DNA of 64,000 nucleotides, from NCBI RefSeq assembly GCF_023887685.1, contig NZ_JAMWMR010000003.1:62001-126000 (forward strand), given 5' to 3'. Below the pieces are notes generated by a model. That model did not search any database, was not told where the DNA came from, and saw only the letters and a list, made by a program, of their open reading frames with translations. The position numbers were made by a program, and so were the translations under genes. Positions 43,630 to 54,823 of the stretch are shown here, in pieces. Each line of letters begins with the position of its first letter. Positions within the stretch are counted from its first letter, which is position 1. This DNA comes from Streptomyces macrolidinus (GTDB taxonomy: Bacteria; Actinomycetota; Actinomycetes; Streptomycetales; Streptomycetaceae).

Positions 43630-43989
43630 ATGAGCCACATCCAGGGCGTCCGGCTGCCGGACGGCACGGTGATCACCGCCCGGATCGGTGCGGGGGAGGC
43701 GTACGGGGAGCAGGAGGACGTCGGCTTCACGGACGCGGCCCTGGCCAAGATGGACCAGTTGCAGGACCTGATCAGGGGCGTGGGCGGCAGCGTTCTCGAC
43801 GCCGCCCGCGCGGCGAAGCCCAGTGAGGCGTCCATCACCTTCGGGGTGGAACTCGCCGCGAAGGAGGGGCTGGCCGTCGCCGTGCTCGCCCGGGGCGAGG
43901 CCAAGGCCTCCCTGCAGGTCACTCTCACCTGGCAGTTCGACGCCCAGCCCGCGACATCCGGCGACGGGGACCCGGCGGCGCATGACTGA
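43630..43989 (+). CDS. Trypsin-co-occurring domain (Trypco1, CU044_2847 family) protein
   Basis: A 119-residue protein (MSHIQGVRLPDGTVITARIG... ELAAKEGLAVAVLARGEAKA). The pattern of a short N-terminal beta hairpin, a DQLQDLIRGVGGSVLD helix and a FGVELAAK...LQVTLTW pair of strands matches Trypco1. These small proteins are encoded beside trypsin-like peptidases in actinobacterial conflict clusters and are thought to be partners or substrates of the peptidase. The downstream peptidase gene starts eight bases before this stop (ATGACTGA). Proteolysis by the neighbour is inferred. Confidence 0.85.
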   Translation: MSHIQGVRLPDGTVITARIGAGEAYGEQEDVGFTDAALAKMDQLQDLIRGVGGSVLDAARAAKPSEASITFGVELAAKEGLAVAVLARGEAKASLQVTLTWQFDAQPATSGDGDPAAHD

Positions 43990-45940
43990 GCGCAACGACA
44001 GACTCTGCGACCTCACCCGCGCCGCCACCGTCCATCTGCTGGCCGCCGACGGCGACGACCGGCCGCTGTGGGGCAGCGGCTTCTTCGTCGCGCCCGGGTG
44101 GGTGCTGACTGCGGCCCATGTCCTGCGCCCCCATCTGGCGGCCGACCGCACCCTCGGCTTCCGGGTGCGCGGCGAGGGCATCGACGCCGAGGCCCACCTC
44201 GCACAGTGGCTGCTCACCGACCCGCGCATCCCCACCGTCCCGCTGGAGGAGGACCTGGCCCTGGTGCGGCTGGCGGGCGACCCCGACGAGCATCCGCACG
44301 AATGCGTGTGGCTCGCCGACCGCGCCGTACGGCACTCCGGCGCCCTCAAGGCGTGCGGCTACTACCCCGGCCCGCCCGAGACGCACTTCCGGAGCGTGGA
44401 CGCCGAGATCAACGGCCACGAGGACACCTACGGGCTGATCATCAAGCCGGACATCGAACTCCCGGCCGGTGTCTCGGGCGGCCCGCTGCTCGACCCCGGC
44501 ACCGGAGCCGTCGTCGGGCTGATCAAGTCGCGCCGCAGACAGCAGGACGGCGGCAAGGCGGTGGCGATCTCCGCGCTGCGCCGCTTCGGCGACACCTACC
44601 GCACGGTCATGGCCGCCCATGACCGCTGGCACGGCGACGAGCCGCAATCCGCCGCCGGGGACAACTGGATCGACCTCCAGGGCGGCCCGTCGGACGGCGG
44701 TGGCGAGCGGTGGACCCCCGCCGACCGCCGCGAGGCCCTGCGGCTGCTCGCCGACCTGCCCGCACCGCCCGACGCGCCCACCGTCGAACTCCTGGCGGCC
44801 AAGGCCCGCAGCGGCAACAAGTGGCCCGGCGGCACACCCGAGTTGCTGACCTGGAGGGACGGCTACGGGCTGCTCTACGAGGGCGTCCAGCCGCTCGACG
44901 CGCTCACCTTCCTGCGCTACCTGAAGCACGTCGAGACGTACACGGACTCCCGGCGCGGGGACTGCGCCGCGCTCGGCAGATGGATCGACCGGCGGCTGCG
45001 CAGGGAACCACGCAAGCCCATGCACGACTTCGTCCGCGAGGTCAGCCTCCCCGCGGCGCTCAGGCCCGCCCCCGAGGACCTGCCGGACCAGGTCGTCATC
45101 CCCTACCCCGGGCCCGGCGAGGGCCCCACCGTCGCCGTCCTGCTCGACCCGGTGATCGGAGCGGACCCGGCCCGCTTCTTCTGGCAGATCTGGTACGACG
45201 ACGGCGAGGGCGACCCCGAGATGTACGAGGCGGACGCCTCCGTCCACGGCTGCGCGCCCGAGGACCTCGTCCGGGCGCTGCGCGAGCCCCTCGGCAGGCT
45301 GCTGCGCGCCAAGGACCGCGACGGCAGCCCCGTGCCCCTCGAAGTCGCCCTGCCCGCAGGTCACTTCGACACCGCGGTGCACCGCTGGCGGTTCGACGAC
45401 ATCGCGGAACTCCATGACACCGGGCATCTCGCGGTTCGCCGCCGTGTGGTGCTGCGCGCGCTCGAACGCCGTGGGGATCCGGACAAGTTGTGGACGGAGC
45501 GCTGGCAGGCGATGCTCGGCCGACGCCGCTTCCGCGCCTGGCGCACCCCCGCGCGGCACGACGTCCCGAGCGCCCGTGGCTACCGCGAGGCCGCCTTCGA
45601 CCGTATCCCGGTGATGTGCCGGCCCGCCGGGCGCGAACCCGGGCGCACCTCCATGCGGCTCGCGCTGGAGAACGGCCACGGCGTCGCGCTCTGGCACATC
45701 GACGGACACGCCTCGCGCGCCTGCCCGGAAGCGTGCGACACGCTCTACGCGCGCGTGGAGGAGCTGCTCGGCACCATGGGAGCGCTCGCCGAACTCCCCG
45801 ACCGCTTACGGCAGGTACGCCAGGACGTCAGCGAGCGCCGGGCCGACCGCGCCTGGGCCGAGCCGATGGCGCTTCTGTACGACGATCCACGCCGCCCCTT
45901 GCCTCCTGAGGAGGCCGAGACCTTGGACGCGCCGCTGTGA
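43982..45940 (+). CDS. Trypsin-like peptidase fused to VMAP domains
   Basis: A 652-residue protein. Residues 10-215 are an S1-type protease with the complete triad: His46 (GWVLTAAHVLR), Asp91 (EEDLALVRL) and Ser165 (AGVSGGPLLD). It has no signal peptide, so it is intracellular. The rest matches the middle and C-terminal domains of vWA-MoxR-associated proteins (VMAP-C), a helical-strand module with many Trp/Arg and the segment RVRLLCRPAGREPGRTSMR-like (VMCRPAGREPGRT). In VMAP ternary systems such proteins work with a MoxR ATPase and a vWA protein, both encoded next. The gene has a TTA codon (codon 609, 45806-45808). Confidence 0.88.
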   Translation: MTERNDRLCDLTRAATVHLLAADGDDRPLWGSGFFVAPGWVLTAAHVLRPHLAADRTLGFRVRGEGIDAEAHLAQWLLTDPRIPTVPLEEDLALVRLAGDPDEHPHECVWLADRAVRHSGALKACGYYPGPPETHFRSVDAEINGHEDTYGLIIKPDIELPAGVSGGPLLDPGTGAVVGLIKSRRRQQDGGKAVAISALRRFGDTYRTVMAAHDRWHGDEPQSAAGDNWIDLQGGPSDGGGERWTPADRREALRLLADLPAPPDAPTVELLAAKARSGNKWPGGTPELLTWRDGYGLLYEGVQPLDALTFLRYLKHVETYTDSRRGDCAALGRWIDRRLRREPRKPMHDFVREVSLPAALRPAPEDLPDQVVIPYPGPGEGPTVAVLLDPVIGADPARFFWQIWYDDGEGDPEMYEADASVHGCAPEDLVRALREPLGRLLRAKDRDGSPVPLEVALPAGHFDTAVHRWRFDDIAELHDTGHLAVRRRVVLRALERRGDPDKLWTERWQAMLGRRRFRAWRTPARHDVPSARGYREAAFDRIPVMCRPAGREPGRTSMRLALENGHGVALWHIDGHASRACPEACDTLYARVEELLGTMGALAELPDRLRQVRQDVSERRADRAWAEPMALLYDDPRRPLPPEEAETLDAPL

Positions 45941-46124: not shown

Positions 46125-47120
46125 ATGAGCGAGTGGTTCATCTACCGGGGCACCGGGCATCCCGATCCGAGCAGGATCGAGGGGCTGCCGCCGCCACCGC
46201 CGTGGCGGGCCTTCGACGCCCCGCCCGTGGCGTACGAGGTGCCGGACCTCGACTCCGCCACCGGCCGCAGGCTCGGCAAGCCCGTCCCGCTGCCAGTCCA
46301 GGACGCCGAGACCCTCGAACTCATCAACGCCGCACTGTACTTGCGGCGCCCCCTGCTCGTCACCGGCGAACCCGGCGTCGGCAAGTCGACCCTCGCGCAC
46401 TCCGTCGCCCATGAACTCGGCCTCGGCCGCGTCCTGGAGTGGCCGGTCGTCAGCCGCAGCGAACTGCGCGACGGGCTCTACACCTACGACGCCATCGGCC
46501 GCCTCCAGGACGCCCAACTGCCCGGCGACGCCTCGGCACAGGACATCGGCCGGTACATCAAGCTCGGCCCGCTCGGCACCGCGCTGCTCGCCGCCGACCG
46601 GCCCCGCGTGCTGCTCATCGACGAGCTGGACAAGAGCGACATCGACCTGCCCAACGACCTGTTGAACGTCCTGGAGGAAGGCCGCTTCGCCATCCCCGAG
46701 TTGGAGCGGATCGCCGACCGGACCCCGGTGGTCGAGGTCCTCACGGACGACGGCCGCCGGGTGGCCGTGACAGGCGGCCATGTACGCTGCCGTACCTTCC
46801 CGTTCGTCGTCCTGACCAGCAACCGCGAGCGGGAGTTCCCCACCCCGCTGCTGCGCCGCTGTATCCCGCTCGACCTCAAGGCTCCGCGCGACGAACGCCT
46901 CGCCGCCCTGGTCCAGGCGCACTTCGGGTCGCTGGGGTACGACGACAACCGCGACATCGTCGAACGGTTCACCCGCGCCGGGGCGGACGGGGCGCTGCGC
47001 CCCACCGACCAACTGCTCAACGCGATCTTCCTCGCCCAGCACGCCGCGCGGGATGCTTCCGAGCGTCGCGAGGAACTCTCGGAGCTGCTGATGCAGCCGC
47101 TCGACCGCGGGCCGCGGTAG
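46125..47120 (+). CDS. MoxR-type AAA+ ATPase
   Basis: A 331-residue ATPase. Walker A is GEPGVGKST (residues 81-89) and Walker B LLIDELDKSD near residue 164 with Asp166-Glu167. Sensor 1 lies in TSNRERE and the arginine finger in FPTPLLRRC. The N-terminal 60 residues are Pro-rich and variable. MoxR ATPases act as chaperones that remodel vWA proteins using ATP; the next gene encodes such a vWA protein five bases after this stop. GAGGAGC precedes the ATG. It forms the middle of the VMAP-MoxR-vWA trio. Confidence 0.9.
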   Translation: MSEWFIYRGTGHPDPSRIEGLPPPPPWRAFDAPPVAYEVPDLDSATGRRLGKPVPLPVQDAETLELINAALYLRRPLLVTGEPGVGKSTLAHSVAHELGLGRVLEWPVVSRSELRDGLYTYDAIGRLQDAQLPGDASAQDIGRYIKLGPLGTALLAADRPRVLLIDELDKSDIDLPNDLLNVLEEGRFAIPELERIADRTPVVEVLTDDGRRVAVTGGHVRCRTFPFVVLTSNREREFPTPLLRRCIPLDLKAPRDERLAALVQAHFGSLGYDDNRDIVERFTRAGADGALRPTDQLLNAIFLAQHAARDASERREELSELLMQPLDRGPR

Positions 47121-47125
47121 CCGCC

Positions 47126-50100
47126 ATGACCTCCCGGGCGCCCGGTCCCCTCGCCGACGCCGTGAGCCCCGCGCTCACGGCGCTGGTGGCGCGCCTGCGG
47201 GACGCGGGGATCGTACCGGGCGTCGAGGAACTCGCCGACGCGCTGTGGCTGGCCCATTGGCTGCCCGCCACGACGGAGCGGTCCGACCCGGCCGAGGAGG
47301 TCGTACCGGGCGGAAGCTCCCAACGGCCGGACGACACCGGCCCGTTGCCCCCGAGTGCGCGGCTCCCCCGGCTCCCGGCCGAGCACACCGAGCCGCAACC
47401 ACCCGACGCGGCCCGGCTGTTCGCACCCGAACCAGGAGAGACCGGTACCGCCGTCCCCTTGGCGCCGATAGGCGTCCCGACCGCGCCCGCCCTCCCCGAA
47501 CCCCTCGCCCTGCAACGGGGGTTACGCCCCCTCCAGCGCTACCGCGCGCCCGTACGGCCCGTCCCGCGCGTCCTGGACGAGACCGCCACGGCCGAACGGG
47601 CCGCCGAGTCCGGGCTCGTGCTGCCCGTCCTGCGCACCGACCGGCGCCGCGAGGCCCGGATGCTGCTCGTGATGGACGTCTCCACCTCCACGGTGGTGTG
47701 GCAGCAGGCCCTCGACGAACTGCAGCAGGTCTGCGCGCGCGCCGGAGCCTTCCGCGAGGTGCAGGTCCAGTATCTGCACGAGGCACCGGGCGGCCTGCCC
47801 GGCTGCTCCGCCACCCCTGAGCCCACCGGCCCGCTGCACGCTCCCGAGCAGCTCAGCGACCCGACGGGACGGCGCGTCACCCTGGTGCTCAGCGACTGCG
47901 CCGGGCCGATGTGGCGCGGCGGCGCCATGCAACGGCTGCTGCACCGCTGGGCCGCGACGGCACCCGTCGCCGTCGTACAACCACTGCCGCAGCGCATGTG
48001 GCTGCGCACCCATCTGCCCGCCCGACGCGGGCTGTTGCACCGCCGCGAAGGGCCCGCGGGCGCCCTGGAGTTCCGGCCCGAGCGGGGACGTACGGAGCGT
48101 GGGGCGCTGCCCGTGCCCGTGCTCGCGCTGCGGCGCGCGTCGGTGGAGGGCTGGGCGCGGTTGGTGTCCGGGGCCACGGGACAGTCCCTGGACGCGGCGG
48201 CCGGGTGGGTACGGGCCGACCACGCGCCGTCCGCGGCGCCGGTACGGGCCGCGGCGGACCTCAGCGGAGCGGAGCGGGTGCGCGCCTTCTGGCGCCCCGC
48301 CTCCTCGGAGGCGCGCCGACTGGCCGTGTATCTGACCGCGGTGCCGCTCCATCTGCCCGTGATGCAACTGGTCCAGCACGCGATGCTCGCGCGCAGCGGA
48401 CCCGATGTGCTCTCCGAGGTGCTGCTCAGTGGACTCGTCCGGCGCCGCGAGGACACCGGCCGACCCGACGGCGTGCGCTACGAGTTCCTGCCCGGGGTCG
48501 CCACGGAGCTGCGCACGCGCCTGACTGTCGAGGACGCCGAGCTGCTGTTCAAGCACTGCTCCGAGTACGTGGGACGGAAGTTCGGCCGCAGCGTGCGCAA
48601 CTTCCCCGCGCTGGCAGGGGCGTTCCTGCACGGCGCGGTGCTCCGCGAGCAGCTCCTGTCGCCCACGGGTGGACCGGGTGAGGACGAGCCGGTCGGCCTG
48701 CGGGCGTTCGCCGAGGTGTCGGCGGAGGTGCTGCGGGACCTCGGCGCCCGGATGCCGGTGGTGCCGGTCCGTCCCGAACTCAGCGACAGGGAACTGCTGG
48801 AGAGGGGGCGCGCGGCGCTCGCGCGGTTCGGACGTGAGGGCCTCACCCGCGAACTCGACGCCGCGGTGGAGTACTTGCGACGGGCCACCGGGGTCGCGCG
48901 GACGCAAGCGGGCCAAGGGGCCGCCCATGAAGCCCTGGCCCAGGGGCTGTTGGCCCGCTGGCAGGTACGGGGTGTGGGGGAGGACCTTCGGGAAGCCTGG
49001 GAGTCGCTCGACGGCCGAAGGCCGCTGTCCCCCGACGGAAGGCTCGTACGAGGGCTGGTCTGCTGGGCCCAGGCGCGGAAGGTACGGACTCGGGGGATCG
49101 GCTTCCCGGGCATCCCGGACAGCCTGCGCGAGTGGGCGGGGACGGTATCGGGGAGCGCCGAGGACCACGCGTACGCCCTGCTGCTGTACGTGGCGGACCG
49201 GGATCTCACGTCGGTGCTGAGCGACGGGGGGATGCCCGAGCGGCTGTCGACCGCAGGGGGAACGCTGGCGGAGGTACGCCGGGCCCTGGCGGAAGCGGGT
49301 CCCGGCACCGGGGAAGACCTCGGGCCCGAGGAGTGGTACGTGCTGCATCTGCTCCGGGCGGCCGTAGCCGCAGGAGTACGCATCGACCTCGGCCTCTCGG
49401 AGCCCGCCCATCTCGTACGGGGACGCATCTGGCTCGACCTGGCCCGGCACTACCAGGGGAAGGGGCCGATCGAGGGGGTGGCTCCCGATACCGAGCGGGC
49501 GGCGGACCTGGCCTCGCGTGCCGCGGGCGACCTCCTGGTGGCGGCCGACGACGGCAGCGGGCTGTCCGCCGCCGAGCACTGCCGGGCCTGGCTGGACCTG
49601 GCCTCCGCCGAGGAGATCGCCGACCGGCGGGAGCCCGAGCGGCTCGCCCATGTACTGGAACACGCGCTGATCACGGCGGGCGGCGATCCCGAGCTGAGGC
49701 TCGAATGCCATATGCGGGCCGCCCGGATCCATCGCGCCCGGTTCAGGAGGACCAAGGACCCGGCCGAGCTGGACAGCGCGATCGCGGCCTGGACGGACGC
49801 CGAATGGCTGCTGAGCGAGGACGATCCCCGGCGGCCCGCCGTGCTGGCCGACTTCGGCGCGGCCCTGATCCACCGGTCGGGGACACCCGCGCGGTCCCAG
49901 GACGTCGCCAAGGCCATCGACCTGCTACGGCGCGCGGTCGACGAGTCCCCACCGGACGATCCGGAGCTGCCACGACGGAGAGGAACCCTGGCGTACGCCC
50001 ATGTCCTGCGGTACGGAGCACAGCTCGTCCAGTCCGACCTGTACGAGGCAGAGTGGCTGTTCGGCGAGGCCATCCGCGGTTCGGACGACCAGGCGTTCCT

Positions 50101-50407
50101 GGCCAAGGCGTGGATGAGCCGGGGGGCGGCGCTCGTCCTGCTGGCCGCTCACGCGGACGCGCGTCCGCGCCAGAACGAGGCGCTCGACTGCTTCTCCCGG
50201 GCCGCCGTCCACGCCCGCGCAGCCGGGGACGAGGAACTGCTCGCCGACGCCCATGAGGCGCGAGGTCGCGTCCGGGAGCAACTGGGCGAGCCCGAAGCCG
50301 CGTTGACCGAATTCCGCACCGCACTCGACCTCACCGGGAACCCCGACACCATCGACGCCCTCCGCACCCACATCTCCCGCCTGGCCCCGGAAGCGCCCGA
50401 AGAGTGA
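47126..50407 (+). CDS. vWA-like/TPR protein (SAV_2336 N-terminal domain family)
   Basis: A large protein of 1093 residues. The N-terminal 160 residues are Pro/Glu-rich. A vWA-like domain follows, with the metal-ion site DVSTST (DxSxS) at residues 184-189 in LVMDVSTSTVVWQQALDELQ. Residues about 380-700 contain SAV_2336-type segments (VMQLVQHAMLARSGPDVLSEV). The C-terminal 500 residues are a helical repeat array of TPR/STAND-C type (LASAEEIADRREPERLAHVLE, then LRRAVDESPPDDPE). It is likely the conformational sensor of the trio. Codon 133 is TTA (47522-47524). Its stop overlaps the start of the small peptide gene by four bases. Confidence 0.82.
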   Translation: MTSRAPGPLADAVSPALTALVARLRDAGIVPGVEELADALWLAHWLPATTERSDPAEEVVPGGSSQRPDDTGPLPPSARLPRLPAEHTEPQPPDAARLFAPEPGETGTAVPLAPIGVPTAPALPEPLALQRGLRPLQRYRAPVRPVPRVLDETATAERAAESGLVLPVLRTDRRREARMLLVMDVSTSTVVWQQALDELQQVCARAGAFREVQVQYLHEAPGGLPGCSATPEPTGPLHAPEQLSDPTGRRVTLVLSDCAGPMWRGGAMQRLLHRWAATAPVAVVQPLPQRMWLRTHLPARRGLLHRREGPAGALEFRPERGRTERGALPVPVLALRRASVEGWARLVSGATGQSLDAAAGWVRADHAPSAAPVRAAADLSGAERVRAFWRPASSEARRLAVYLTAVPLHLPVMQLVQHAMLARSGPDVLSEVLLSGLVRRREDTGRPDGVRYEFLPGVATELRTRLTVEDAELLFKHCSEYVGRKFGRSVRNFPALAGAFLHGAVLREQLLSPTGGPGEDEPVGLRAFAEVSAEVLRDLGARMPVVPVRPELSDRELLERGRAALARFGREGLTRELDAAVEYLRRATGVARTQAGQGAAHEALAQGLLARWQVRGVGEDLREAWESLDGRRPLSPDGRLVRGLVCWAQARKVRTRGIGFPGIPDSLREWAGTVSGSAEDHAYALLLYVADRDLTSVLSDGGMPERLSTAGGTLAEVRRALAEAGPGTGEDLGPEEWYVLHLLRAAVAAGVRIDLGLSEPAHLVRGRIWLDLARHYQGKGPIEGVAPDTERAADLASRAAGDLLVAADDGSGLSAAEHCRAWLDLASAEEIADRREPERLAHVLEHALITAGGDPELRLECHMRAARIHRARFRRTKDPAELDSAIAAWTDAEWLLSEDDPRRPAVLADFGAALIHRSGTPARSQDVAKAIDLLRRAVDESPPDDPELPRRRGTLAYAHVLRYGAQLVQSDLYEAEWLFGEAIRGSDDQAFLAKAWMSRGAALVLLAAHADARPRQNEALDCFSRAAVHARAAGDEELLADAHEARGRVREQLGEPEAALTEFRTALDLTGNPDTIDALRTHISRLAPEAPEE

Positions 50408-50553
50408 CCACCCCCGACGACACCCCCAGACCCCTCCAGGAGATCACCCCTCCCGAACACACCGATCACCCCGTACTGGCCGCCGTCCTTGCCGAAGTCC
50501 GCGCCCGGAACGGGGAGTCCACCGTCGTCGCCCACTACGAAGACGCCCCGTGA
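50404..50553 (+). CDS. Candidate RiPP precursor peptide (FxsA position)
   Basis: A 49-residue peptide read from GTG 50404: MTTPDDTPRPLQEITPPEHT, then DHPVLAAVLAEVRARNGEST and VVAHYEDAP. It overlaps both the vWA gene and the maturase gene by four bases (GTGA on both sides), so all three are coupled. Acidic/Pro-rich leader, a helical middle (VLAAVLAEVRAR), and a short C-terminal core. FxsB enzymes normally act on peptides ending Phe-x-Ser-x-x. Here the end is His44-Tyr45-Glu46-Asp47-Ala48-Pro49; the aromatic-x-acidic spacing Tyr45/Asp47 suits a three-residue cyclophane. No Shine-Dalgarno box stands out, as usual for such overlaps. Translation is unproven. Confidence 0.65.
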   Translation: MTTPDDTPRPLQEITPPEHTDHPVLAAVLAEVRARNGESTVVAHYEDAP

Positions 50554-51773
50554 CCGTCCACCCGCACCCCCACCCGCGCTGGCCGCATGCCCTCCTCGAC
50601 ACCGGGGCCCACCGACCCACCCCCTTCCGGCAGTTCGTGCTGAAGCTGCACAGCCGCTGCAACCTCGACTGCGCCTACTGCTACCTCTACCGGGGCCAGG
50701 ACCACGGCTGGCGTGACCGCCCGCCCCGTACCGACCCCCGTACGATGCACCGCACCGCCGCCCGCGTCGCCGAGCACGTACGCACCCACGGCCTCGACCA
50801 CATCCGGATAGAACTCCACGGCGGCGAGCCCCTGCTCGCCGGTCCCGCGCCCGTCCTCGCCTACGCCCGTGCCGTCCGCGAGGCCGTCCCCGCGCACTGC
50901 GCGGTCACCGCCACCGTGCAGACCAACGGCACCCGCCTCACCGACGCCGTCCTCGACCGGCTCGCGCGGGCCGGTGTCCGGGTCGGGCTCAGCCTCGACG
51001 GCGGACGCGCCGCCCACAACGCCCGCCGCGTCGACCACGCCGGGCGCCCCGCCTGGTCCGCCGCGCGCGCCGCCGCCCTCCGGCTCGCGGCGCGCCCGGC
51101 CACGTACGCCGGAGTCCTGTGCACCATCGACCCGGACACCGATCCGCTGGACGTCTACCGCTCCCTGCGCGTACTGGACCCGCCCGGCGTGGACTTCCTG
51201 CTCCCGCACGCCAACTGGGCCCATCCGCCGCCCGGTTCGAGCCCCGGCAGCCCCGGACGCCACCGGCCGCGGCCCACCCCGTACGGCGACTGGCTGGCCG
51301 CCGTCTTCGACGCCTGGTGGGACGAGCGGCGGCCCCCGACGCGGGTGCGGCTCTTCCAGGAGATCGCCGCGCTGCTGCTCGGCGCGCCCAGTTCGGCCGA
51401 GGCGGTGGGGCTCTCGCCGATGGCCGCCGTCGTGATCGAGACGGACGGCGCGATCGAGCAGGTCGACTCGCTGCGGTCGGCCTATCCGGGCGCGGCGGAG
51501 ACCGGACTCGACGTCTTCCGGCACACCTTCGACGCCGCACTGCGCCATCCCGGCATCGCCGCACGGCAGTTGGGCGAGCGCGCGCTCGCGAAGGAGTGCC
51601 TGGACTGCCCGGTGGGGAAGGTGTGCGGAGGCGGCAACTACGTCCACCGGTACGCGCCCGGCACCGGCTTCCACCACCCCAGCGTCTACTGCGCCGACCT
51701 GGAACGACTCATACGGCACATCGCGCATCGGCTGGAACACACCGCCCGTACGACGGGCCGAAGCGGAAGCTGA
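50550..51773 (+). CDS. fxsB: FxsB-type radical SAM/SPASM peptide maturase
   Basis: A 407-residue radical SAM enzyme. The cluster motif is CNLDCAYC with Cys37, Cys41 and Cys44, followed by HGGEPLLAG. The C-terminal SPASM-type domain has Cys350, Cys353 and Cys359 (CLDCPVGKVC), then GGGNYVHRYAPGTGFHHPSV and a last Cys near residue 381. FLLPHANWAHPPPG and VVIETDGAIEQVDSL match FxsB family proteins. FxsB enzymes crosslink an aromatic side chain to the backbone-proximal carbon of a nearby residue (three-residue cyclophane). It starts with a GTG inside the stop of the candidate precursor. No HExxH hydroxylase domain is fused here. Confidence 0.87.
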   Translation: MTVHPHPHPRWPHALLDTGAHRPTPFRQFVLKLHSRCNLDCAYCYLYRGQDHGWRDRPPRTDPRTMHRTAARVAEHVRTHGLDHIRIELHGGEPLLAGPAPVLAYARAVREAVPAHCAVTATVQTNGTRLTDAVLDRLARAGVRVGLSLDGGRAAHNARRVDHAGRPAWSAARAAALRLAARPATYAGVLCTIDPDTDPLDVYRSLRVLDPPGVDFLLPHANWAHPPPGSSPGSPGRHRPRPTPYGDWLAAVFDAWWDERRPPTRVRLFQEIAALLLGAPSSAEAVGLSPMAAVVIETDGAIEQVDSLRSAYPGAAETGLDVFRHTFDAALRHPGIAARQLGERALAKECLDCPVGKVCGGGNYVHRYAPGTGFHHPSVYCADLERLIRHIAHRLEHTARTTGRSGS

Positions 51774-51862
51774 CGACAACTCACCTGTGACACAACTGCT
51801 TTGACGCACAATTGACGGACGTGTGGACAGTCGTGACCGGGTTCAACCGAGGGGACGGCGAG

Positions 51863-54823
51863 ATGACGGCGGAGCTGGAACACGTCACGGTGGTCTTCGC
51901 CGGGCAGAGTGAGTCCTGGGCCCGGTGGATCGACCACCAGATCCAGGCCGCGGGCCGGGCCACGACGCTCATCCGATGGAACCCGCTGCGCCGGCCACCG
52001 ACCGTGGAGGCGCTCGCCGACCTGCTGAGCGCGCCGGGGCGGGTGCTGCTCCTCCTCGACGACTGGTACGAGCGGCTCGGCCGCGAGCGGTTCACGGCAT
52101 GGGCGGACGTCCTGCGACAGGGACTCCCGGCATACCGCGACCGGCTCGCCGCCGTGAGCGTCACCGCCCGGCCCATGCCCGAGGAGGTCATCGCCCTCGC
52201 ACCCGTCGAACTGCGGGGCCTGCGCCCGGAAGTGGCGCGCAGCCGCGTCCTGGAGTGCGCGGGCGTCCCGGCTCCCGGCATCCTGGTCGACCTGCGCCGC
52301 GGCCCCCGCTTCCCGGACGACCCGCCGGAGGTGTGGCAGGCCCCGCGCCGCAACCGCCGCTTCATCGGGCGGACCGAACTGCTGGAGAAGATGTACGGGG
52401 CCTTCTCCGCCGGGCGTACCGAGGGCGCCGCCGTGGTGCTGCTCGGTCCGGGCGGCTTCGGCAAGACACAGCTCGCGCTGGAGTACGTCCACCGGTTCGC
52501 CGGTGAGTACGACATCGTGTGGTGGGTCAACGCCGCCCAACGGGTCACCGCCCGCGAGCAGTTCGCCGAGCTGGCGCCCCGGCTGGGACTGCCGGACGCC
52601 GGGGACCTCACGGCCACCATCAAGGCCGTACGACGTGAACTGGACCGCACGCTCCGGCCCTGGCTGATGGTCCTGGACGGGGCCGAGGACCCCGACCGGC
52701 TGCTCGATCTCCTCCCGGAGGGGCGCGGGCACGTGCTGATCACCACGTACCGCACCGACTGGGGCGCCCACGCCGAGACCGTCACCATCCCGGTGTTCGA
52801 GCGCCAGGAGAGCGTCGCGTTCGTGGGGCGTCGCACCGCGCGGCTGACCGACGAGCAGGCCGAGCGGCTCGCCGAGGCCGTCGAGGACATGCCGCTGCTG
52901 CTCGACCAGACCGCCACCTGGCTGGACCTGAACCCCGCCGTGCCCGTGGACGCGTATCTCCGGGACATCCGGGACGGCCGACCCGACCGGTTCGGGGTCA
53001 TGGCCTCCGGCCAGTACCCGCAGAGCTTCGAGGTCGCCTGGGCCAAGCTGGTCAACAGCCTGCGCGAAGGGGCCGAATCCGCCTGGCAGTTGCTCAACCT
53101 GCTGGTCTGCTTCTCCCCGGACGTCGTCCCCGTGCGGCTGCTGCAGACGGCCCGGCACGGCGATCTGCCGCCCGAACTGGCCGAGTTGGTCGCCGAGCCC
53201 AGTAGCTGGAACACCGCCCTGCGCAAGCTGTCCGAGATCACCTCCATGCGCATCGAGTACGAGCAGAACCCTCGGATGGACACGCAGACCGTCGGCACGC
53301 TGCGCATGCACCGCCTCTTCCACCGGTTCGTGCGCTCCATCCAGTCGCCCGACGACGTCGCGCGCTACTCGGCCGCCGCCCGCAGGGTCCTGGTCTCCGC
53401 CGACCCGCGCGACCCCGCCTCGGCCGCCAACGGGGCCCGGTACGCGGCGCTCATCCCGCATCTGGAACCGTCCCGGGCCCTGGAGTCGACCGACGACGAC
53501 CTCCGCGAACTCGTCCTCAACTGCATCGAACACCTGCGGATGCGGGGCGAGTACCACGACGGCTGGTGGCTGAGCCGCATGGCCGTGGAGAACTGGAGCG
53601 CCACCGCCGCGCCCACCGACCGCCACGTCCTCGTCGCCGTCCACCAACTCGCCAACATGCTCCGCAGACTGGGGAAGTACGCGGAGGCCGAGAGCGTCGG
53701 CCGCGACATCCTCGGGCGGCTGGAGACCGCCGGGAACACCCGCCCCATCGAGCTGATCCGCGCCAAGGACGGCCTCGGCGGCACGCTCATGGCGCTCGCC
53801 CGGTACGACGAGGCGGGCGCCCTGTTCGAGGAGGCCGCCGCGATCGCCGCCGCCGAACTCGGCGACGAGCAGGTGCCGCGCACCCTCGCCCTCCGCAGCA
53901 ACCTCGCGGTCGCCCTCGGCCTCCAGGGCCACTACGCCGACTCGCTCTCCCTGCATCTGAAGGTCTTCGAGGCCCGTGTGGAGGTCCTCGGCGGCAAGCA
54001 TCCGCTCACCCTCAACTCCGCGCTGGGCACGGCCTGGATGCTGCGGCTGCTCGGCGACTACCGCGAGGCACTGGCCATCCAGGGCCACAACTCCCGCGCC
54101 CACAGCCAGGCGTTGGGCCGCAACCACAGCCAGACCCTGCTCGCCGAGCACAACCTCGCCCTGTGCGCCCGCCGCGTCGGCGACCTCCAGTTCGCGGAGG
54201 CCATGATGGGCGCGGCCCGGCGCAGGCTGCTGGGCCGCCGCGGCCCCCAGCACCCCGAGTCCCTGATGGTCACCTGCGACTACGCGATGCTGCTGCGCGA
54301 CCTGGGCCGTATCGAAGAGGCCCGGGAACTGGCCGAGTTCAGCGCCGGCCAGTACGCGGCCCAGCTCGGCGACCATCATCCGTACGCGATCGGGGCGCGG
54401 GACAACGTCGCCGTCCTGCTGCGCGAGGCGGGTGAGAGCCAGGAGGCGCTCGAACTGTCCCGCGATGTCCGCGCCCGGATGGAGCGGGCGGTGGGCGCCG
54501 ACCATCCCTGGGCCATCGGCTGCGCCAAGAACCAGGTCGCCGCGCTCGCCGCCGACGGCGACACCGAGGCCGCGGTCGCCCTGGGCCGCGAGACCGCCGA
54601 GCGGGCCGCGCGCACCCTGACCGACGCGCACATCCTCACCATCAGCCTGCGGGCCGGACTCGCGGTCGACCTGGCCGGGCTGGGTGAGCACGCGGAGGCC
54701 GAGGCGCTGCGCCGGGACGCGGCCACCCGGCTCACCTGGCTCCTCGGCGCCGATCACCCGCACATCCGCCGCATCCTCGAACGCCACCGCCCGCACTGGG
54801 ACTTCGAGCCCCAGCCGATCTGA
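51863..54823 (+). CDS. fxsT: FxSxx-COOH-system TIR-like/NB-ARC/TPR protein
   Basis: A 986-residue STAND-class protein. Residues 1-110 are a TIR-like domain (VTVVFAGQSESWARWIDHQ, then VLLLLDDWYERLG). Residues about 165-430 are an NB-ARC ATPase with Walker A GPGGFGKTQ (Lys201) and RNRRFIGRTELLEKMYGAF before it. Residues about 560-980 are at least ten TPR units with the LG..H...L...NLA pattern (NHSQTLLAEHNLALCARRVGD). Such proteins accompany FxsA/FxsB and are thought to sense a signal, oligomerise and trigger an effector. The ATG at 51863 has GAGGGGA upstream; a TTG at 51812 is the other option. No separate FxsC gene is present; the TIR-like part is fused. Confidence 0.87.
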   Translation: MTAELEHVTVVFAGQSESWARWIDHQIQAAGRATTLIRWNPLRRPPTVEALADLLSAPGRVLLLLDDWYERLGRERFTAWADVLRQGLPAYRDRLAAVSVTARPMPEEVIALAPVELRGLRPEVARSRVLECAGVPAPGILVDLRRGPRFPDDPPEVWQAPRRNRRFIGRTELLEKMYGAFSAGRTEGAAVVLLGPGGFGKTQLALEYVHRFAGEYDIVWWVNAAQRVTAREQFAELAPRLGLPDAGDLTATIKAVRRELDRTLRPWLMVLDGAEDPDRLLDLLPEGRGHVLITTYRTDWGAHAETVTIPVFERQESVAFVGRRTARLTDEQAERLAEAVEDMPLLLDQTATWLDLNPAVPVDAYLRDIRDGRPDRFGVMASGQYPQSFEVAWAKLVNSLREGAESAWQLLNLLVCFSPDVVPVRLLQTARHGDLPPELAELVAEPSSWNTALRKLSEITSMRIEYEQNPRMDTQTVGTLRMHRLFHRFVRSIQSPDDVARYSAAARRVLVSADPRDPASAANGARYAALIPHLEPSRALESTDDDLRELVLNCIEHLRMRGEYHDGWWLSRMAVENWSATAAPTDRHVLVAVHQLANMLRRLGKYAEAESVGRDILGRLETAGNTRPIELIRAKDGLGGTLMALARYDEAGALFEEAAAIAAAELGDEQVPRTLALRSNLAVALGLQGHYADSLSLHLKVFEARVEVLGGKHPLTLNSALGTAWMLRLLGDYREALAIQGHNSRAHSQALGRNHSQTLLAEHNLALCARRVGDLQFAEAMMGAARRRLLGRRGPQHPESLMVTCDYAMLLRDLGRIEEARELAEFSAGQYAAQLGDHHPYAIGARDNVAVLLREAGESQEALELSRDVRARMERAVGADHPWAIGCAKNQVAALAADGDTEAAVALGRETAERAARTLTDAHILTISLRAGLAVDLAGLGEHAEAEALRRDAATRLTWLLGADHPHIRRILERHRPHWDFEPQPI

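Follow-up and report, generated by a model that had tools for sequence, protein, structure and literature searches.

A predicted YxD-type triceptide precursor and its FxsB-family maturase in a putative VMAP conflict locus of Streptomyces macrolidinus

The window analysed here, i.e. the whole stretch of 64,000 nucleotides, encodes a 49-residue peptide that adjoins a radical SAM/SPASM maturase of the FxsB family (Table 1). By analogy with characterized relatives, this maturase very probably (we put the probability at about 0.85) installs a three-residue cyclophane between Tyr45 and Asp47 of the peptide, whose product would then be a YxD-type triceptide. The two genes lie within a predicted VMAP ternary conflict system, so that the locus links two literatures, that on YxD triceptides and that on VMAP conflict systems.

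Table 1. Features of the locus (positions in the window)
Feature	Position	Strand	Basis
Trypco1 (trypsin-co-occurring domain 1)	43630..43989	+	PF19493 64.9 bits, cut-off 24.6
VMAP, trypsin-like peptidase N-terminus	43982..45940	+	PF13365 55.5 bits, cut-off 27.6
AAA+ ATPase, MoxR-like by position	46125..47120	+	PF07728, PF00004 over cut-off
vWA (MIDAS)-TPR protein, SAV_2336 N-terminal domain	47117..50407	+	NF041121 441.8 bits, cut-off 200
Candidate YxD-tail precursor peptide	50404..50553	+	49 aa, GTG start; NF041709, TIGR04268, codon constraint
Conserved leader segment DHPVLAAVLAEVR	50464..50502	+	Residues 21-33; kept in orthologues
Core tail AHYEDAP	50530..50550	+	Residues 43-49; tail tally over 44 places
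Tyr45 codon	50536-50538	+	In core tail AHYEDAP
Asp47 codon	50542-50544	+	In core tail AHYEDAP
FxsB-family radical SAM/SPASM maturase	50550..51773	+	TIGR04269 424.3 bits, cut-off 370
FxsT: TIR-like N-terminus, NB-ARC, TPR	51812..54823	+	NF040586 761 bits, cut-off 300

The peptide, its family and its tail

The 49-codon frame was confirmed; it encodes MTTPDDTPRPLQEITPPEHTDHPVLAAVLAEVRARNGESTVVAHYEDAP, with the C-terminus ...VVAHYEDAP. It shares a GTGA with each neighbour: at 50404-50407 its start GTG overlaps the end of the vWA/TPR gene upstream, and at 50550-50553 its own stop overlaps the GTG of fxsB. A previous sequence-only reading had described a peptide at the FxsA position, overlapping its maturase and devoid of the FxSxx C-terminus, and this description was borne out by the frame, its HYEDAP tail and the GTGA shared with the maturase start. 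The overlap with the long upstream frame recurs in every one of the 17 sequences compared (that of the window and those of 16 loci with a maturase identity of at least 78%), the start being picked as the GTG that yields a peptide of 44-54 residues beginning with VT.

In these 17 sequences, dN/dS (Nei-Gojobori style, with pooled pairs that come from related sequences and are not independent) was lowest in the tail VVA+HYEDAP, at 0.06, compared with 0.41 over the whole frame; the leader helix stands at 0.29, the N-terminus at 0.56 and the linker at 0.67. The frame is real, beyond chance, and the substitution pattern indicates strong purifying selection on its tail.

When compared with NCBIfam by hmmscan, the peptide matched NF041709 (RiPP_phane_YxD) with an E-value of 6.7e-10 and 38.8 bits, and is thus not a member under NCBI's curated rule of 55 bits. 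The alignment pairs residues 18-49 with positions 15-47 of the 47 in the model, and we ascribe the low score to the first 14 model positions, which are unmatched. The FxSxx-COOH model TIGR04268 gave a weak match (16.3 bits, cut-off 28), which together with the HYEDAP tail places the peptide outside that family as well; YhhA matched at chance level only. On these scores, the peptide is to be regarded as a divergent branch of NF041709 that lies under the naming threshold.

It should be noted that the Tyr-x-Asp tail had been proposed as a new core motif. This claim is now closed, because NF041709 (“YxD-tail cyclophane-containing RiPP peptide”) already describes such tails in NCBIfam and the Tyr-Asp bond is in print: YxdB joins Tyr C3 to the Asp beta carbon, according to the accessible part of a review (PMC11002830) citing Sugiyama 2022. 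The remainder of the proposal fared better, in that the matches to NF041709 and TIGR04269 make the peptide a likely precursor for the maturase and Tyr-x-Asp the likely crosslink site, with a bond that is plausible though not new in view of the same portion of PMC11002830. With the NF041709/YxdB triceptides, as these are described, the peptide shares a C-terminal Tyr-x-Asp tail, a short leader and an adjoining FxsB-family maturase, and it would share the bond type reported for YxdB in what was available of the literature; it differs in its score below the curated cut-off, in the unmatched N-terminal part of the model and in the His at position -1. With FxsA/FxsB (TIGR04268/TIGR04269) the locus has in common a maturase that passes TIGR04269, a leader segment weakly matching TIGR04268 and the FxsT partner; the absence of a Phe-x-Ser tail and the low TIGR04268 score set the peptide apart from FxsA. 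The HPVL-type segment of the leader, DHPVLAAVLAEVR, is common to the peptide and to Phe-type precursors.

Relatives were sought in 295 genomes of the genus Streptomyces, including that of the window. Eleven near-full-length maturase orthologues (75-85% identity) and four partial ones (74-83%) were found. Matches to NF041709 with E up to 1e-4 occur in 97 of the 295 genomes, 11 of which exceed the cut-off; as counted from the table of matches, the match extends to at least model position 44 in 36 genomes, and in the other 61 it ends at or before position 41, i.e. in the leader. In a phylum-wide survey, 6 of 396 genomes, all of the same genus, matched with E up to 1e-6, and in two of them, G620 and the genome of the window, the match extends into the tail. 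A tblastn search of plasmids with the peptide gave no match.

The tail was tallied at 44 places, defined as maturase loci that lack an HExxH gene and show a peptide match of E up to 1e-6; since L089 and L168 have identical maturases, 43 of them are distinct. The consensus is A-x-[Y/F/H]-x-[D/N]-[A/G/S/T]. In the columns left free by the pattern, residue -2 is A in 44/44, residue -1 (residue 44) is Y in 22, H in 13, F in 4, Q in 2 and R, V and S in 1 each, and residue 46 is E in 35, D in 6, A in 2 and G in 1. The other columns are conditioned, since the pattern required Y/F/H, D/N, A/G/S/T and A/P/R there, and within these limits the aromatic column is Y in 39, F in 4 and H in 1, the Asp47 column D in 42 and N in 2, the next A in 25, G in 9, S in 8 and T in 2, and the last P in 42, R in 1 and A in 1. 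No place was lost through failure to match the pattern. The E-values of the peptide profile lean to YxD-like tails, because 13 peptides, including that of the window, seeded it.

Three alternatives concern the peptide itself. The crosslink could involve His44, either in a ring 44-46 or in a second ring, like the His cyclophanes of the HaaB/YhhB type; His-containing cyclophanes are known (PMC11002830, in the part available), one relative (L162) carries the tail AYHEDSP with His at the aromatic position, and a HaaA-family precursor is encoded in the same genome. We nevertheless consider this improbable: the sequence-only reading had pointed to His44 beside the triplet, and it proved not to be a conserved part of the motif (all 13 His44 tails fall within the group at 79% identity or more), Tyr45 and Asp47 being far more constant. 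The frame could also be a decayed fxsA or an unmodified overlap frame, as the missing FxSxx and the scores below both curated cut-offs would allow; the strong purifying selection that its tail appears to undergo, and the recurrence of this tail at 44 places, each beside a maturase, make such an origin very improbable. It is hardly credible, finally, that some other, unannotated frame encodes the real precursor, a concern raised in the earlier reading. Frames in other phases and on the reverse strand do overlap the place of the peptide in a mechanical list of open reading frames, but the peptide occupies the entire same-strand gap between its neighbours, and the gap between fxsB and fxsT amounts to just 38 bases (TTG start) or 89 (ATG start). 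The search for homologous short frames upstream of closely related maturases, which had been suggested as a check, found the same frame, with a YEDAP tail, in 16 of the 16 close loci with upstream DNA; a seventeenth, L139, starts inside fxsB and hence lies outside this count.

The maturase and the proposed crosslink

The maturase scores above the 370 bits of TIGR04269 and possesses both the CxxxCxxC motif and the SPASM cysteines, which are invariant in 41 aligned sequences. Its AlphaFold2 (AF2) model (pLDDT 88.9) has as best solved match ChlB (PDB 9gm3; Z 50.0, rmsd 1.8 Å, 36% identity over 372 residues), crystallized with the leader of its precursor. The predicted fold is thus that of ChlB, a multiple cyclophane synthase (PDB 9gm3, 9gmc). 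ChlB is, however, paired with an alphaKG-HExxH hydroxylase domain according to the accessible part of PMC12636437, while the FxsB of the window has no HExxH gene beside it. In a quick tree without bootstrap, the maturase and those of peptides above the NF041709 cut-off form a single clade (SH-aLRT 91-92), and the vWA-linked YxD places lie on one side of a branch. In a search for a specificity determinant, three maturase positions (192, 272 and 286) separated the YxD from the Phe-type clade; all are conservative, and no determinant is claimed.

Three features of a YxD-type triceptide locus are seen together: a short frame adjoining an FxsB-family maturase, a C-terminal Tyr-x-Asp kept in relatives (Y/F/H then D/N at the 44 places), and a maturase within the clade of NF041709-peptide maturases (SH-aLRT 91, quick tree). 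As suggested by published relatives, FxsB would bind the leader around DHPVLAAVLAEVR, activate the beta carbon of Asp47 and join it to C3 of the Tyr45 ring, with the loss of two hydrogens.

The VMAP locus and the possible role of the peptide

The gene order is Trypco1-VMAP(trypsin)-MoxR-vWA/TPR-peptide-FxsB-FxsT. VMAP also has a C-terminal VMAP-C domain (PF20028, 118 bits, cut-off 27). The ATPase scored under the cut-off of bpMoxR, and its assignment to the MoxR clade is inferred from the AAA domain and from its position; the gene order supports this reading, as in the available text of Kaur 2020 (PMC7159879). In the vWA protein, D187 and D260 of the motif D187-x-S-x-S + D260 are invariant in 38 sequences, and S189 and S191 nearly so. 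A fold search was used for this region because the single match from a profile search of PDB sequences was at chance level. The AF2 model (mean pLDDT 77.6) is nearest to the MIDAS of Rea1/Mdn1 (Z 8.8, rmsd 3.8, 163 residues). CED-4 structures score equally well but align elsewhere in the model, from residue 297 or 383 to 500. The vWA identity is based on the motif together with the modest fold match (Z 8.8). FxsT, which may start at TTG 51812 or ATG 51863, has NB-ARC and TPR_12 domains over cut-off and a TIR_2 match under it (24.3 against 28 bits); the catalytic Glu was not clearly visible in the alignment of the TIR-like N-terminus by eye, and for this reason no NADase activity is claimed.

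All seven genes stand in this order in 15 of the 17 close loci (at least 78% identity), the other two (L078 and L139) being cut by contig ends. Among the 11 genomes with a peptide above the NF041709 cut-off, nine have VMAP, MoxR, vWA and FxsT together within the stretch retrieved, whose set is incomplete in G068 and G079. Since VMAP, MoxR and vWA occur in order, the locus is a predicted VMAP ternary conflict system, of the bacterial immune type; the defence or cell-suicide role of these systems is itself described as a prediction in the accessible part of PMC7159879. The same source gives the order VMAP-MoxR-vWA/TPR, with a rSAM-SPASM enzyme, for systems with a peptide module, including those of the FxSxx type, which also have a separate TIR-AP-ATPase-TPR gene downstream. 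The present locus differs in its YxD peptide and in lacking the zincin-like gene considered the “core” there; with no such HExxH gene accompanying the peptide, it falls outside the peptide-processing module of Kaur 2020. In the accessible portion of that paper four peptide types are listed (FxSxx, RxD, acidic and FtsH), YxD not among them, and the term YxD has zero occurrences in the main text as available. Among the matches listed in a search of the open-access literature, no paper combined VMAP with cyclophanes or triceptides. PADLOC had no match for the peptide, Trypco1, FxsT or the vWA protein, and only cross-hits for the VMAP, AAA and FxsB proteins (RT-protease, IetA and others, and prokaryotic viperin).

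As a further inference, the VMAP-MoxR-vWA system and FxsT might use the modified tail inside the cell as their signal or effector. Among the seven genes, Pfam and NCBIfam recognise a peptidase in the trypsin-like VMAP alone, which might release the tail. Export is frequent among RiPP products, and this frequency favours the alternative that the finished peptide leaves the cell as a natural product, such as an antibiotic or a signal, rather than being an internal part of the conflict system. We regard this as unlikely, considering that the seven genes include no transporter and stay together with the VMAP ternary core; the alternative touches the role of the peptide, not its chemistry. MIDAS sites bind acidic ligands, and on this background and the gene neighbourhood it is conceivable, although doubtful, that the Tyr-Asp staple serves as a ligand inside the cell instead of being secreted, with the carboxylates of YED shaped for the MIDAS of the vWA protein. 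The tail released by VMAP would then load or free a MoxR-vWA switch and trigger FxsT, and YxD would be a fifth VMAP peptide type with a single origin, in which the beta-hydroxylase was lost (or had never been acquired) and the phenol of Tyr took the place of the added hydroxyl.

The hydroxylase contrast and related precursors

HExxH genes were sought with one tblastn query (from L100) on the same strand, up to 4 kb downstream of fxsB. None was found there beside the FxsB of the window, nor any over cut-off in its genome (best 18.7 bits against 40). A vWA gene lies upstream at 57 of 105 maturase places, and only those 57 were counted. The tail is YxD-type at all 37 of these without HExxH, where FxsT starts 42-240 bases past FxsB, and Phe-type at all 20 with it, where FxsT (visible in 19) starts 1291-1792 bases past FxsB; five odd tails were labelled by hand, L091 (F-x-N) and L162 (H-x-D) as YxD-type and L102, L105 and L145 as Phe-type. 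The HExxH gene is TIGR04267 in both loci checked (L100 and L095, 2 of 20). Variant YxD-type tails are F-x-N in L167 and F-x-D in L096 and L173; the tails of L059 and L061 fall outside those seen.

On a quick tree of 103 chosen rows (36 + 20 of the vWA-linked places; L086, YxD-type without HExxH, was left off for a stop in the matched stretch and L139 as too short), tail type and HExxH each change once, so that the contrast is a single event without replication. HExxH absence alone does not imply a YxD tail, because the 48 places without vWA are mixed and 15 kept rows without HExxH have no recognised peptide. The association of vWA-linked YxD-type tails with the absence of the beta-hydroxylase, as against Phe-type tails with it, is possibly a new observation from these sequences, and this natural contrast could be used to test the role of the peptide in multicellular bacteria.

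Phe-type VMAP loci (among them L090, L092, L098, L100, L103 and L116) have tails such as WGFTNAF and WGFNNAM, accompanied by the HExxH gene, and the sister Phe-type tails often show Phe-x-Asn instead of Phe-x-Ser. Some YxD relatives are multiplied. In L162 (G068), and also in L034, one long frame holds two precursor modules, each with AYHEDSP (His for Tyr), and G103 has two matches within one frame. Two cores per peptide (GAYFSDAP ... GAYFADTP, Phe for Tyr) occur in L096 and in L030 and L173 (one genome, G168). In L162, L163 and L166, fxsB occurs twice in tandem, the copies being separated by about 3.5 kb and each paired with a YxD-type peptide of its own. The genome of the window itself encodes a HaaA-family precursor of 63 aa (L175:9896-10087, minus strand; NF041708 104.7 bits, cut-off 55) ending GVHAASLIWPWPL, which adjoins a second FxsB-family maturase (412 bits).
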